The notes under the pieces were generated by a model. It saw nothing but the letters and a program-made list of their open reading frames with translations, was not told the origin of the DNA and did no database searches. DNA of 38,561 nt from Streptomyces alkaliterrae (GTDB taxonomy: Bacteria > Actinomycetota > Actinomycetes > Streptomycetales > Streptomycetaceae), in the NCBI RefSeq assembly GCF_007097205.2, contig NZ_VJYK02000011.1, positions 1 to 38,561 on the forward strand, given 5' to 3'. Positions 1 through 22,779 of the stretch are shown here, piece after piece (the first letter of the stretch is position 1; each line of letters begins with the position of its first letter). Position numbers and translations under genes: made by a program.

Positions 1-90
1 GCTCCCAGTAGACGACTGGGTTGATAGGCCGGAGATGGAAGACCTGTGAGGGTTGGAGTTGACCGGTACTAATAGGCCGAGGGCTTGACC
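1..90 (+). rRNA. 23S ribosomal RNA, 3' end (partial)
   Basis: The window opens inside a large-subunit rRNA. The conserved 3'-terminal segment is visible: GACCGGTACTAATAGGCCGA (61-80) followed by GGGCTTGACC, which is how actinobacterial 23S genes end. The exact mature 3' end near 90 is estimated from the family, not measured. A 5S gene follows about 100 bp later, so this is the tail of a 16S-23S-5S operon. Confidence 0.93.
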
Positions 91-188
91 ATATGTGCTC
101 GCGTCCACTGTGTTGGTTCTGAGGCAACAGCTGCCGGAACCCGAACCGCATGCGTGTGGTGGGTTTGCCGGGTTGTTTGTTTCATAGT

Positions 189-307
189 GTTTCGGTGGTC
201 ATAGCGATGGGGTAACGCCCGGTTACATTCCGAACCCGGAAGCTAAGCCTGTCAGCGCCGATGGTACTGCATGCGGGAGCGTGTGGGAGAGTAGGACGCC
301 GCCGAAC
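189..307 (+). rRNA. rrf: 5S ribosomal RNA
   Basis: About 119 nt with the classical actinobacterial 5S landmarks: a start of GTTTCGGTGGTCATAGCG, the loop region CCCGGTTACATTCCGAACCC, and the 3' arm GAGTAGGACGCCGCCGAAC, which pairs with the 5' end. It lies about 100 bp after the 23S end and is followed at once by a strong terminator, so it is the last gene of the rRNA operon. Confidence 0.95.
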
Positions 308-11270: not shown

Positions 11271-11289
11271 CGGAAACGGCTGTTGACCC

Positions 11290-11503
11290 CGCACGGGAGA
11301 GTCCGTCGGTCCCCGACCGGCGGCGCCGAAGGAGCAAACCCTCCCCGGAATCTCTCAGGCTCACGTACCGTGCGGACGAGGTCACTCTGGAAAGCAGGGC
11401 GGGCCATGGTCGGCACAGCGCCGAAGCCCCTCCTCACCGACGGTGAAAGCCGGCGCGCGGCCAGCGTGCCGGTGAAGCTCTCAGGTCGTGATGACAGAGG
11501 GGG
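11290..11503 (+). ncRNA. Tandem glycine riboswitch
   Basis: Two glycine aptamers sit side by side upstream of gcvP. Aptamer 1 (about 11293-11395) shows CGGGAGAGTCC, GCGCCGAAGGAGCAA, AATCTCTCAGG and GTCACTCTGGAAAG. Aptamer 2 (about 11405-11503) shows GCCGAAGC, GGTGAAGCTCTCAGG and GATGACAGAGGGGG. These are the conserved glycine-riboswitch segments. Glycine binding normally turns on glycine-cleavage genes so that excess glycine is burned as a carbon source. The expression platform must lie in 11504-11566, where a GGGCACC (11511-11517)/GGTGCCC (11527-11533) hairpin precedes the Shine-Dalgarno sequence at 11552. Aptamer ends are approximate. Confidence 0.92.
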
Positions 11504-19860: not shown

Positions 19861-19895
19861 TCGACACTCATGTTGTGGCTGGGCATCATGGCCGG
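19861..19895 (+). promoter_or_regulatory. Leaderless promoter of the first EamA gene
   Basis: TCGACA (19861-19866), a 17-nt spacer and CATCAT (19884-19889), then 6 nt to ATG 19896. Both hexamers differ from consensus by one or two bases. The spacing predicts transcription starting at the ATG. Confidence 0.55.
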
Positions 19896-20939
19896 ATGCA
19901 CCAGAGCACCCCGTCGCCGGCCGCGCGTTCGCGCGTCGGCCTGATCCTGGCCCTGACCTCGGCACTCGCCTTCGGCGGCTCCGGAGTCGTGGCCAAACCA
20001 CTCATCGAGGCCGGACTCGCGCCGCTGCACGTCACCTGGCTCCGAGCCGCCGGCGCCGCCGTCCTGCTGCTGCCGCTGGCCTGGCGGTACCGGCGGCTGG
20101 TGTGGGAACGACCGGGCCTGCTGGCGGGCTTCGGTCTCTTTGCCGTGGCCGGCGTGCAGGCGTGCTACTTCGCGGCGATCTCCCGCATCCCCGTGGGCGT
20201 GGCGCTGCTCATCGAGTACCTCGGCCCGGCGCTGCTGCTCGGCTGGGTGCGCTTCGTGCAGCGCCGACCGGTCTCCCGCGCCGCCGGGGTGGGTGTGGTG
20301 CTCGCGGTGACGGGCCTGGCGTTCGTCGTGGAGATATGGGCCGGGCTGGGATTCGACGCCATCGGCATCCTGTTGGCGCTGGGCGCCGCCTTCTGCCAGG
20401 TCGGGTACTTCGTGCTCGCCGACCACGGCTCAGCCGGCGGAGAGGGCAAACCGCCGGCCGAGCCCGCCGGAGTCATCGCGTACGGCCTGCTGTTCGGAGC
20501 GCTGCTGCTGACCGTCGTCGCGCGGCCGTGGGGCATGGACTGGTCGGTCCTGGGCGGCTCTGCGTCGATGGACGGCCGCGAGGTGCCGGCGCTGCTGCTG
20601 CTCGGCTGGATCGTGCTGGTGGCGACGGTGGCCGCCTACCTCACCGGGGTGCTGGCGGTACGGCGGCTGTCGCCGCAGGTCGCCGGGGTCATCGCCTGTC
20701 TGGAGGCGGTCGTGGCGACGGTCCTGGCCTGGGTCGTGCTCGCCGAGCACCTGGGCGCGGCGCAGGTCGTCGGCGGCACGCTGGTACTCGCCGGTGCGCT
20801 GATCGCCCAGCGCTCCGCGCCCCGCCCGGCGGCCGGCGAGCCGGTCGCCGCGGGACCCGGCCCGCTGCCCGCGCCCACCGAGGAAGGCCCGCTGCCCGCG
20901 TCCACCGGGGACTTGCCGACGGCCGCGCGCCGTCCGTAG
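19896..20939 (+). CDS. EamA (DMT-superfamily) transporter, first copy
   Basis: A 347-aa transporter with ten hydrophobic helices arranged as two EamA repeats: about 14-145, then 160-300. It is likely an exporter of amino acids, metabolites or drugs; the substrate cannot be read. Typical marks are SALAFGGSGVVAKPLIEAG in repeat 1 and ACLEAVVATVLAWVVLAEHLG near the end of repeat 2. The last 45 residues are a Pro/Ala-rich tail. ATG 19896 is preferred to the ATG at 19875, which would lie between the promoter elements. The 3' end of the gene contains the promoter of the downstream leader peptide, so the two EamA genes seem to be separate transcription units although adjacent and co-directional. Confidence 0.88.
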   Translation: MHQSTPSPAARSRVGLILALTSALAFGGSGVVAKPLIEAGLAPLHVTWLRAAGAAVLLLPLAWRYRRLVWERPGLLAGFGLFAVAGVQACYFAAISRIPVGVALLIEYLGPALLLGWVRFVQRRPVSRAAGVGVVLAVTGLAFVVEIWAGLGFDAIGILLALGAAFCQVGYFVLADHGSAGGEGKPPAEPAGVIAYGLLFGALLLTVVARPWGMDWSVLGGSASMDGREVPALLLLGWIVLVATVAAYLTGVLAVRRLSPQVAGVIACLEAVVATVLAWVVLAEHLGAAQVVGGTLVLAGALIAQRSAPRPAAGEPVAAGPGPLPAPTEEGPLPASTGDLPTAARRP

Positions 20940-20942
20940 GGT
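20913..20942 (+). promoter_or_regulatory. Promoter for the leader peptide and second EamA gene
   Basis: TTGCCG (20913-20918), an 18-nt spacer and TAGGGT (20937-20942) lie inside and across the stop codon of the upstream EamA gene. The -10 ends 7 nt before the ATG at 20950, the leaderless arrangement seen elsewhere in the window. Confidence 0.55.
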
Positions 20943-20949
20943 TGCCGCC

Positions 20950-20985
20950 ATGCTCCAGACAGTGCTTCCGCCGCCCGCCGCGTAG
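20950..20985 (+). CDS. Putative 11-aa leader peptide MLQTVLPPPAA
   Basis: A 12-codon frame (ATG ... TAG) begins 7 nt after a -10 hexamer and needs no Shine-Dalgarno sequence. It encodes MLQTVLPPPAA; the three consecutive prolines are a known ribosome-stalling context, relieved by EF-P. The last codons form the left arm of a small hairpin (CCCGCC 20974-20979 with GGCGGG 20986-20991). Beyond it, TCAGGAGGA (20996-21004) can pair with TCCTCCCTGA (21078-21087) with one bulge, 15 nt before the next ATG. The layout resembles attenuation by a translated leader before a transporter. Too short for ordinary gene finders; whether it is translated is an inference. Confidence 0.45.
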   Translation: MLQTVLPPPAA

Positions 20986-20995
20986 GGCGGGCCCC

Positions 20996-21087
20996 TCAGG
21001 AGGATCGAGCCGACGGCCGACACCGGTCGCTCGGCCGGTCGCCGTCGCCCGCCCACGGGACACGCGACCCTCTTCACTCCTCCCTGA
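20996..21087 (+). promoter_or_regulatory. Structured leader between leader peptide and second EamA gene
   Basis: A 117-nt untranslated stretch. TCAGGAGGA at 20996-21004 looks like a Shine-Dalgarno sequence with no start codon after it. It is complementary to TCCTCCCTGA at 21078-21087, giving a long-range pairing with one bulged base. Such pairing could switch with the hairpin at the end of the leader ORF. This is inference from complementarity. Confidence 0.35.
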
Positions 21088-21102
21088 TTCGCGGAGCACT
21101 CC

Positions 21103-22176
21103 ATGAAGCTCGACCACAAACCCGCCCTGCCCGTGGGCCGGGGCCTGTCCTACGTCCTGATCGCCGCCATCGCCTGGGGCACGGCCGGCGCGGCGGCGGC
21201 CGTCCTGTTCGACACCAGCGGCCTGGGTCCGGTGGCGCTCACCTTCTGGCGCACGGCGGGCGGGCTGCTCCTGCTGGCGCCGCTCCTGCTGCTGCGGGCC
21301 CGTCGCGGTCGGCGCGGTGCCGGGCGGTCCGCCGGGTCCGGGCGTCCGCTCTCCTGCCGGGTCCGGCTGGGCCGCGCCCTGGCCACCGGAATGAGCCTGA
21401 CGGTCTTCCAGACCGCCTACTTCGGCGCCGTCCACGCCACCGGCCTGGCGGTGGCCACCGTGGTCACCCTCGGCGCCGGACCTGTCCTCATCGCACTGGG
21501 CGGGCGGCTGTGGATGGCCGAACGGCTGGGCCGGGGCGGCGCCCTGGCGGTGGCGGGCGCCGTGACGGGCCTGGCCGTCCTCGTCCTGGGCGGCGCCGAC
21601 GGCTCCGGCACGGTCGTCCCGCTCGGCGTCGGCTACGCCCTGCTCTCCGCCCTCGGCTACAGCGCCATGACCCTCCAGGCCAGGCACCGCGCCCGGGCCG
21701 GCGAGCACGTCGACTCGCTGGGCGCGACGATCTCCTCGTTCGCGGTCGGCGCCGTGCTGCTGCTTCCCGCGGCGATGTGGGAGGGACTGTGGCCGGTGTC
21801 GGCGGAACTCGGCGACTGGCTGCCGATGATGGTCTACCTGGCGGCCGTGCCGACCGCGCTGGCCTACGGCCTGTACTTCACCGGCCTGGTCGCGGTACGG
21901 GCGGCGACGGCGGCGGTGATCGCGCTGATCGAGCCGGTGACCGCCGCGGTGCTGGCCGTCGTCCTGCTCGGGGAGCACCTGACGGCCACCACCGTGGCCG
22001 GCACGACCGTGCTGCTCACGGCGGTGGCGGCGCTGGTGGTGGCCGAGTCGCGGTCAGGGGCGGGCGTATCCCGTCAGGTAGCCGGGGGCGGTGATCGCCG
22101 GGTCGAGGTCCTCGGCGGGGCGCAGCGGCCCGTAGGACTCGCGGACCGGGAGGACACCGCTCCAGTGCAGGAGTGA
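21103..22176 (+). CDS. EamA (DMT-superfamily) transporter, second copy
   Basis: A 357-aa membrane transporter with two EamA repeats (about 15-150 and 170-300). Landmarks are [16 protein letters not shown], a Tyr/Phe segment [20 protein letters not shown], and [20 protein letters not shown] near the end. Substrate unknown; related proteins export amino acids or drugs. GGAG lies 6 nt before ATG 21103. The last 41 codons are hydrophilic, unlike the family, and lie opposite the 3' end of the convergent PNPOx-like gene (overlap 22054-22176), as if an earlier stop had been lost. The long structured leader with a Pro-stalling peptide suggests its expression answers to translation stress. It shares only family-level similarity with the first EamA gene, so they are not a recent duplication. 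Confidence 0.88.
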
Positions 22177-22779
22177 CAGGTCCTCCGGTTCCTCGTTGGG
22201 GCCGCCCTGCCGGAGCTTCGCCGACACCTCGGCGAGGTCGAGCGCGAGCACCGCCGTGGCGGCCAGCTCCCTGGCGTTGCCGGGTCGGCAGTCCGCGGCC
22301 CTTCCGGGGATCACGTGGTCGACGAGCGCGTCCAGCACCTCCGCCTTGAGGTCGGGATCGGTGACCTGGCGGGCGGTGCCGTGCACCACCACGGACCGGT
22401 AGTTGACGGAGTGGTGGAAGGCGGACTTCGCCAGCACCAGCCCGTCGACGTGGGTGACCGTCACGCACACCGGGACGCCCGGGTCGCGCCGCCCGGCCAG
22501 CAGCGGGCGCGAACCGGTGGAGCCGTGCACGTAGAGGGTCTCGCCGATCCGCGCGTACAGGGTCGGCAGCACCACCGGCGCGCCGTCGCGCACAAAGCCG
22601 AGATGGCAGAGGTAGCCCTCGTCGAGTATCGCGTGCACGGTCTCCCGGTCGTACGCGGCGCGCTGCGGGGCGCGGCTGGGGACCGTGCGGTCGGTACGCG
22701 GGTACGAACCGGCGCGGACCGCGGGCGCGGCGTCTCCCGCGGGCACGGCGGCGGGGGTCGGCGAGGTGGTGTCGGACAT
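22054..22779 (-). CDS. Pyridoxamine 5'-phosphate oxidase family (FMN-binding split barrel) protein
   Basis: A 241-aa protein. A 40-residue disordered N-terminus (Ala/Pro-rich) is followed by the split-barrel: [20 protein letters not shown], then [31 protein letters not shown], and [14 protein letters not shown]. These are Pfam PNPOx-like marks, with residues for FMN binding; it is not a canonical PdxH. Members bind FMN, F420 or heme. It is divergent from a MocR-type PLP-binding regulator with a 45-bp gap containing operator repeats, so it is probably under MocR control. A link to vitamin B6 metabolism is plausible but unproven. AAGGAG lies 6-8 nt before the ATG. The 3' end overlaps the convergent EamA gene by 123 bp. 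Confidence 0.87.

Follow-up and report, generated by a model that had tools for sequence, protein, structure and literature searches.

What does an 11-codon reading frame with three consecutive proline codons do in front of a transporter gene? The window, by which we mean the whole 38,561-nt stretch of Streptomyces alkaliterrae DNA that was analysed, contains two tandem EamA genes, and the 163 nt between them hold a leader element whose parts are listed in Table 1. The original prediction read this element as an attenuator driven by ribosome stalling on a short upstream open reading frame (uORF). We examine below how far the sequence of the locus and of its relatives bears out that reading.

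Table 1. Positions, in the window, of the leader element and of the EamA genes on either side of it.
Feature	Position	Strand	Remarks
Upstream EamA paralogue	19875..20939	+	PF00892 2.4e-26; stop codon overlaps the leader −10 box
Promoter	20913..20942	+	−35 TTGCCG 20913-20918, 18-nt spacer, −10 TAGGGT 20937-20942
Leaderless uORF (predicted), 11 codons	20950..20985	+	MLQTVLPPPAA-stop; conservation, coding signature
Segment S (anti-SD), uORF codons 4-8, AGTGCTTCCGC	20961..20971	+	complementary to the transporter SD region
Hairpin P1	20973..20992	+	Pro8-Ala10 codons GCCCGCC 20973-20979 with GGCGGGC 20986-20992; uORF stop codon in the loop
Arm 2, GGGCGGGC	20985..20992	+	alternative partners: Pro codons (P1) or arm 3
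Segment A, SD-like TCAGGAGGA without start codon	20996..21004	+	pairs with A'
Hairpin P2	21009..21035	+	strongest covariation
Hairpin P3	21037..21069	+	holds arm 3, GCCCGCCC, 21047-21054
Segment A', TCCTCCCTGA	21078..21087	+	partner of A; fold and covariation
Segment S', transporter SD region, GCGGAGCACT	21091..21100	+	Shine-Dalgarno (SD) GGAG 21093-21096; partner of S
Regulated gene, EamA/DMT transporter, 357 aa	21103..22176	+	start ATG 21103; PF00892 9.5e-29

The uORF and its promoter

Both EamA products pass the Pfam EamA gathering score. The downstream, regulated product is a putative exporter, judging from its family, and weakly resembles exporters of amino acids or amines. The NCBIfam models of the 2A78 carboxylate/amino acid/amine transporters and of YddG matched it weakly, both below cut-off, and a structure comparison by sequence returned no close solved structure for it. 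The 3' end of its frame (22054-22176) overlaps a convergent pyridoxamine-phosphate-oxidase-like gene on the minus strand (22054-22779). The convergent gene is retained at 139 of the 166 loci, and beyond it a MocR-type regulator is seen in 84 of the 166, a count that is limited by flank length. Elsewhere, the window carries a glycine riboswitch aptamer (11284-11380; Rfam RF00504, 67.4 bits), and the contig opens with a 23S rRNA 3' end and then a 5S rRNA gene (window positions 1-307).

Orthologs of the regulated transporter were collected by protein similarity alone, with the leader ignored. An ortholog was found in 144 of 199 genomes of the genus (E 1e-40) and, at the level of the class, in 37 of 296 genomes; 44 ortholog loci, a handful of them distant or spurious, came from a set of named genomes. 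At 166 of 169 EamA loci (approximately 79 clusters), the orthologous gene is preceded by a uORF of looser definition, together with the promoter and the hairpin. The exceptions are L132 and L176 (one truncated contig) and L075, where the anchor was misplaced and which carries MYARALVLPPPAA. A strict uORF filter was passed by 166 of 166 upstream regions, this set being the loci, out of the 169, that already held a looser match, and by 0 of 166 control windows of each of three types (reverse-strand, in-gene and farther-upstream). The 166/169 conservation and the empty control windows led us to reject a chance ORF. The original prediction had named absence of the frame from relatives as the outcome that would speak against it, and on this point it survived.

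The codons of the uORF in the window are ATG CTC CAG ACA GTG CTT CCG CCG CCC GCC GCG TAG, and the conserved core of the encoded peptide is V-L-[P/S/A]-P-P-A-x-stop. The final two prolines are invariant in all 79 clusters and are followed by Ala, Val or Leu; at the position before them, 67 clusters have P, 11 have S and 1 has A. The proline motif predicted earlier is therefore conserved, although its strictly conserved form is X-P-P rather than PPP. In 75 of the 79 clusters the stop comes two codons past the last proline. The length of the uORF varies from 10 to 13 codons, and it changes by whole codons with the frame retained. Within the Val, Leu and Pro codons the first two bases are near-fixed and the third varies freely: across the 79 clusters, the entropies of bases 1, 2 and 3 are 0.46, 0.39 and 1.77 bits for Val, 0.65, 0.39 and 1.44 for Leu, 0, 0 and 1.54 for P8, and 0, 0 and 1.34 for P9. 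This pattern of substitution indicates that the uORF is under coding selection. The MLQTVLPPPAA frame of the original prediction is thus supported as a leader peptide, with its proline motif in a hairpin.

Carriers of the leader make up most of the genus sampled and extend to several other actinobacterial families. Outside the core genus, the peptide reads MHQTVLPPPAA in Streptantibioticus, MRFGISPPVR in Glycomyces and MRHLVICPPPAA in Virgisporangium; Micromonospora is also a carrier, though a weak case. Of 30 genomes searched with a covariance model, 29 contain a single clear copy each and two also gave a weak second match; the copies sit directly upstream of the transporter wherever its coordinates are known. 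In S. durbertensis, the nearest relative, the uORF and hairpin are identical to the letter while the flanks differ. The clearest departure from the motif is the MPMTVLPSPAR peptide of Streptomyces philanthi, which has lost the middle proline. This leader, which is perhaps decaying, was excluded from the 79 clusters.

The promoter and the 7-nt gap to the uORF ATG lie in the sequence at the positions originally predicted. A detail missed earlier is that the TAG of the −10 box (20937-20939) is the very stop codon of the upstream EamA gene. The upstream gene precedes the leader in 141 of 166 loci, and the −10 begins with TAG or TAA in 140 of these 141 relatives with the tandem pair, in which promoter and upstream stop codon appear to be fused. 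Most often, at 138 of the 166 loci, the uORF starts 7 nt after TAnnnT; the distance is 6 nt at another 20 and 8 nt at the remaining 8. The 25 loci without the upstream EamA gene have the TAnnnT box too. Because the uORF scan demanded TAnnnT but permitted a spacing of 4-10 nt, the peak at 7 nt was not imposed by the scan. In S. lividans, the −10 element is TAnnnT and lies at a mean distance of 6.3 nt from the transcription start site (TSS) (PMC8079986). The spacing of the uORF fits this −10 to TSS distance, and we therefore predict that the mRNA is leaderless.

Long-range pairing in the leader RNA

The leader folds 4 s.d. better than its shuffles, and the fold contains five nested helices, S:S', P1, A:A', P2 and P3. 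RNAalifold applied to a MAFFT alignment returned few pairs, a probable consequence of misalignment around A' and the SD. For this reason we adopted matched-versus-swapped tests, in which the duplex energy of a species' own two strands is compared with that of strands exchanged between species. Covariation was also scored in an alignment of 99 leaders, and those scores have to be read with the fact that the alignment, or blocks from it, had been fitted to the A:A'/P2/P3 structure. With that qualification, the strongest signal belongs to P2 (z 17 and 13), the A:A' pair 56-132 ranks third in the entire alignment, and two pairs of P3 covary (z 8.0 and 6.0). The swap test gave z −11.4 for P2 and z −5.2 for A:A' (0 of 1000). 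It was indecisive for P1 (z −1.2), the arms of which are near-invariant so that little covariation is possible, and for P3 (−0.6), since these helices are too invariant or too loosely placed. Within P3, GCCCGC is near-invariant in relatives and GCCCGCnnACGGGAnCACGCGACC occurs in many loci. Arm 2 and arm 3 are better matched within species than when swapped (z −3.2), and their pairing increases in folding calculations once the uORF is masked.

Some folds also allow a local lock between A' and the SD. Matched strands performed no better than swapped ones here (z 0.5), and we do not claim it as a conserved helix. Some leaders carry insertions. In L009 and L051, approximately 150 extra nt separate the P1 side from the P3 side, yet both loci retain the uORF and arm 2 as well as the arm 3 region and the SD end; the idea that these loci contain two leader copies was rejected, each being a single leader with a long insert that was matched as two pieces. 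In L108, an inverted repeat of approximately 50 nt is inserted right after the uORF stop, ahead of arm 2.

The original prediction paired the orphan SD-like segment A with TCCTCCC just before the transporter start. The A:A' result supports that pairing, but the proposed switch involves more than this. An SD belonging to the transporter itself, absent from the original prediction, pairs with uORF codons 4-8. Complementarity of the Thr-Val-Leu-Pro-Pro codons extends over the SD and the nucleotides that follow, in a version that changes between species: GTGCTTCCGC is found with GCGGGAGCAC, GACTGTTCTTCCGC with GCGGGAGAACAGTC, GCTGTTCTCCC with GGGAGAACAGC, ACGCGTTCTTCCGC with GCGGAGAGAACGCGTG and, in one large clade, GTACTTC with GAAGTCAC. 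Matched S:S' strands paired better than swapped strands at three dereplication levels (z −8.3, −6.0 and −4.0; 0 of 5000 each). Two controls, the uORF strand with later transporter codons and the PPPAA codons with the SD, showed no effect.

The nucleotide that follows the SD varies in concert with the silent base of the Val codon. T accompanies A in 20 of 20 clusters (Fisher 9e-6), and where C follows the SD it is paired with a G third base in 11 of 12 (Fisher 9e-5). A tree-based test of this wobble position counted 2-4 independent co-changes, all as predicted and none opposing, but the test is underpowered and by itself not significant; the co-changes are suggestive of S:S' pairing rather than proof of it. 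When each strand was swapped with that of the nearest relative in the densest set, pairing lost nothing, and much of the S:S' signal therefore lies between clades. The conservation of Val-Leu may be owed in part to the SD pairing (anti-SD CU-N-CC), and thus need not mean that these residues contact the ribosome as a nascent chain. On comparative sequence evidence, then, S:S', A:A' and P2 are pairings of this leader and the promoter is placed as in Table 1.

A probable translational switch and its alternatives

One interpretation of these results, to which we assign a probability of roughly two-thirds, is that the leader is a cis-acting translational attenuator switched by a ribosome held at X-P-P. 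The transcript would begin at or beside the uORF ATG and so be leaderless. With no ribosome on the uORF, S would pair with S', held near by A:A', P1, P2 and P3, and the transporter would be off. A ribosome on the uORF, above all at X-P-P, would cover S and the Pro-codon arm of P1; the SD would then be freed, arm 2 would pair with arm 3, and the transporter would be translated. The signal would be whatever slows peptide bond formation at X-P-P. A scan of the region between the EamA genes found no terminator-like site, and this, with the pairing of S to the SD, points to control at the level of translation.

Folding calculations are consistent with such a switch. The mean computed cost of opening the region from the SD to the start is 13.4 kcal/mol with the uORF free, 9.9 with a ribosome at X-P-P and 11.3 with one at the stop codon. 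Masking X-P-P lowers the cost in 64 of 76 leaders, and the mean drop is 3.5 kcal/mol, as compared with 1.1 when SD regions are exchanged between species (p 7e-9). The modelled SD is never fully open even with the uORF masked, 9.9 kcal/mol being left. For the leader in the window, the computed costs are 14.1 (free), 9.4 (X-P-P stall) and 6.3 kcal/mol (stop codon); a ribosome at the stop codon likewise opens the SD, and in the window it does so more than the X-P-P stall.

The stall itself, its direction (stall meaning on) and the nature of the signal we infer from the arrangement of the leader. A ribosome stalled at PPP in E. coli has the second proline in its P site (PMC4176338). By analogy, a ribosome so placed would extend over the uORF roughly as far as the stop codon, and arm 2 would remain available to arm 3. 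LPPP stalls ribosomes weakly in E. coli (PMC4176338), which suggests that stalling at the leader may be slight or conditional. Candidate signals are a shortage of EF-P or prolyl-tRNA, a peptidyl-transferase inhibitor or the exported compound. The original prediction of stalling-driven attenuation is thus supported in part, with S:S' pointing to translational control. Pure proline starvation, however, is not favoured, both because LPPP is such a weak context and because induction by starvation for proline would be odd for a putative exporter; it is at least as likely that the trigger is an inhibitor of peptidyl transferase, reduced EF-P activity or the exported compound.

One could instead envision that transcription is attenuated, with stalling at the Pro codons selecting among arms 1:2, 2:3 and 3:4, and with the last of these, or Rho, ending transcription before the transporter gene. 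Mutually exclusive arms 1:2 and 2:3 do exist, with 2:3 favoured in the swap test, and several Streptomyces leader peptides have been described as attenuators that have no clear U-run (PMC8079986). Such a scheme nevertheless seems unlikely, given the empty terminator scan, a conserved covarying partner that is the SD itself and a conserved region that extends up to the start codon. We regard as no more probable a constitutive translational coupling, whereby a heavily used leaderless start would melt the SD helix with no regulated stall. The computed opening of the SD by a ribosome at the stop codon would suit it, as would the weakness of LPPP in E. coli (PMC4176338), but there would be no obvious reason to keep X-P-P at a fixed two codons before the stop.

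Somewhat less probable again is a riboswitch or protein-binding RNA built on the A:A', P2 and P3 junction, in which the uORF would serve only as the anti-SD strand and its translation would be incidental. The conservation of P3 goes beyond what a spacer needs, as this would predict; the alternative pairing with arm 2 explains it too, and the coding signature and the conserved X-P-P beside the stop argue against incidental translation. That the hairpin is merely a terminator of the upstream EamA gene, followed by a short frame arising by chance, was suggested by the GC-rich P1 and by the position of the uORF directly after the upstream stop codon. This can be set aside as refuted by conservation: the same element occurs in 25 loci that have no upstream EamA gene, and the coding signature, the covariation and the absence of control matches speak against it as well.

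Relation to known leaders

In attenuators of the ermC/cat type, a short leader peptide precedes a main gene whose SD is locked in RNA, and a ribosome held on the leader frees the SD. The translational attenuator that we propose resembles these in having a conserved short uORF with a coding signature upstream of the gene and in the sequestration of the main-gene SD by S:S' (comparative and computed evidence). A ribosome on the leader would, in our proposal, free the SD, and the calculation gives a lower opening cost for that state. It differs in that the leader's own codons would be the direct long-range partner of the SD. Here the uORF is also predicted to be leaderless, the gene encodes an EamA transporter, and X-P-P is the candidate stall motif.

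With SecM/MifM and ApdA/ApdP the leader shares a nascent chain that contains proline and whose coding sequence precedes a membrane or export gene. In SecM, the stem-loop that hides the secA SD is the target of control, whereas no SD-hiding hairpin was found for ApcA, ApdA and ApdP (PMC7897499). Unlike these proteins, the EamA leader peptide has only 10-13 residues, lacks a signal or membrane segment and is not encoded upstream of sec or yidC genes. Among the peptides listed there was no R-A-P-P of the RAPP motif (R-A-P-P or R-G-P-P), and V-L-[P/S/A]-P-P occurs in nearly all of the 79 clusters. The actinobacterial amino acid attenuators (leuA, ilvB and trpE leaders) are similar in that they have leaderless short peptides and alternative hairpins in Streptomyces (PMC8079986). 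In contrast to them, the EamA leader has neither a terminator nor a matching biosynthesis gene, and Val-Leu is kept beside its Pro codons.

The original prediction treated a leader of this type as not known for DMT transporters, and our searches agree. The leader and eight relatives had no gathering match in Rfam, and relaxing the threshold yielded nothing beyond one hit at chance level (8.4 bits, E 3.8), on which basis a known RNA family was rejected. The EamA leader is not among the eight peptides listed in the S. lividans leader-peptide survey (PMC8079986), and in the open-access literature we found no EamA leader peptide or VLPPPA peptide described in such a context. The EamA leader has apparently not been described as a regulatory element.

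A more tentative idea, which we consider possible but rather doubtful, is that these leaders form a new family of conditional arrest peptides: a V-L-[P/S/A]-P-P-A-x leader of 10-13 residues would sense a small molecule or translation stress, uncover the SD hidden by its own codons and induce an exporter of the same molecule or of related ones. If this is true, one stretch of RNA would be coding sequence, arrest motif and anti-SD together. Pairing with an SD approximately 120 nt distant seems to constrain the silent codon positions of the leader. As a short natural X-P-P leader, it may have an output that reports EF-P activity, prolyl-tRNA supply or the presence of peptidyl-transferase drugs. 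Streptomyces is the main antibiotic-producing genus, and the finding adds to it a widespread candidate cis-regulatory element ahead of a conserved putative exporter; the leader would offer a direct route, via its inducer, to the substrate of that transporter.
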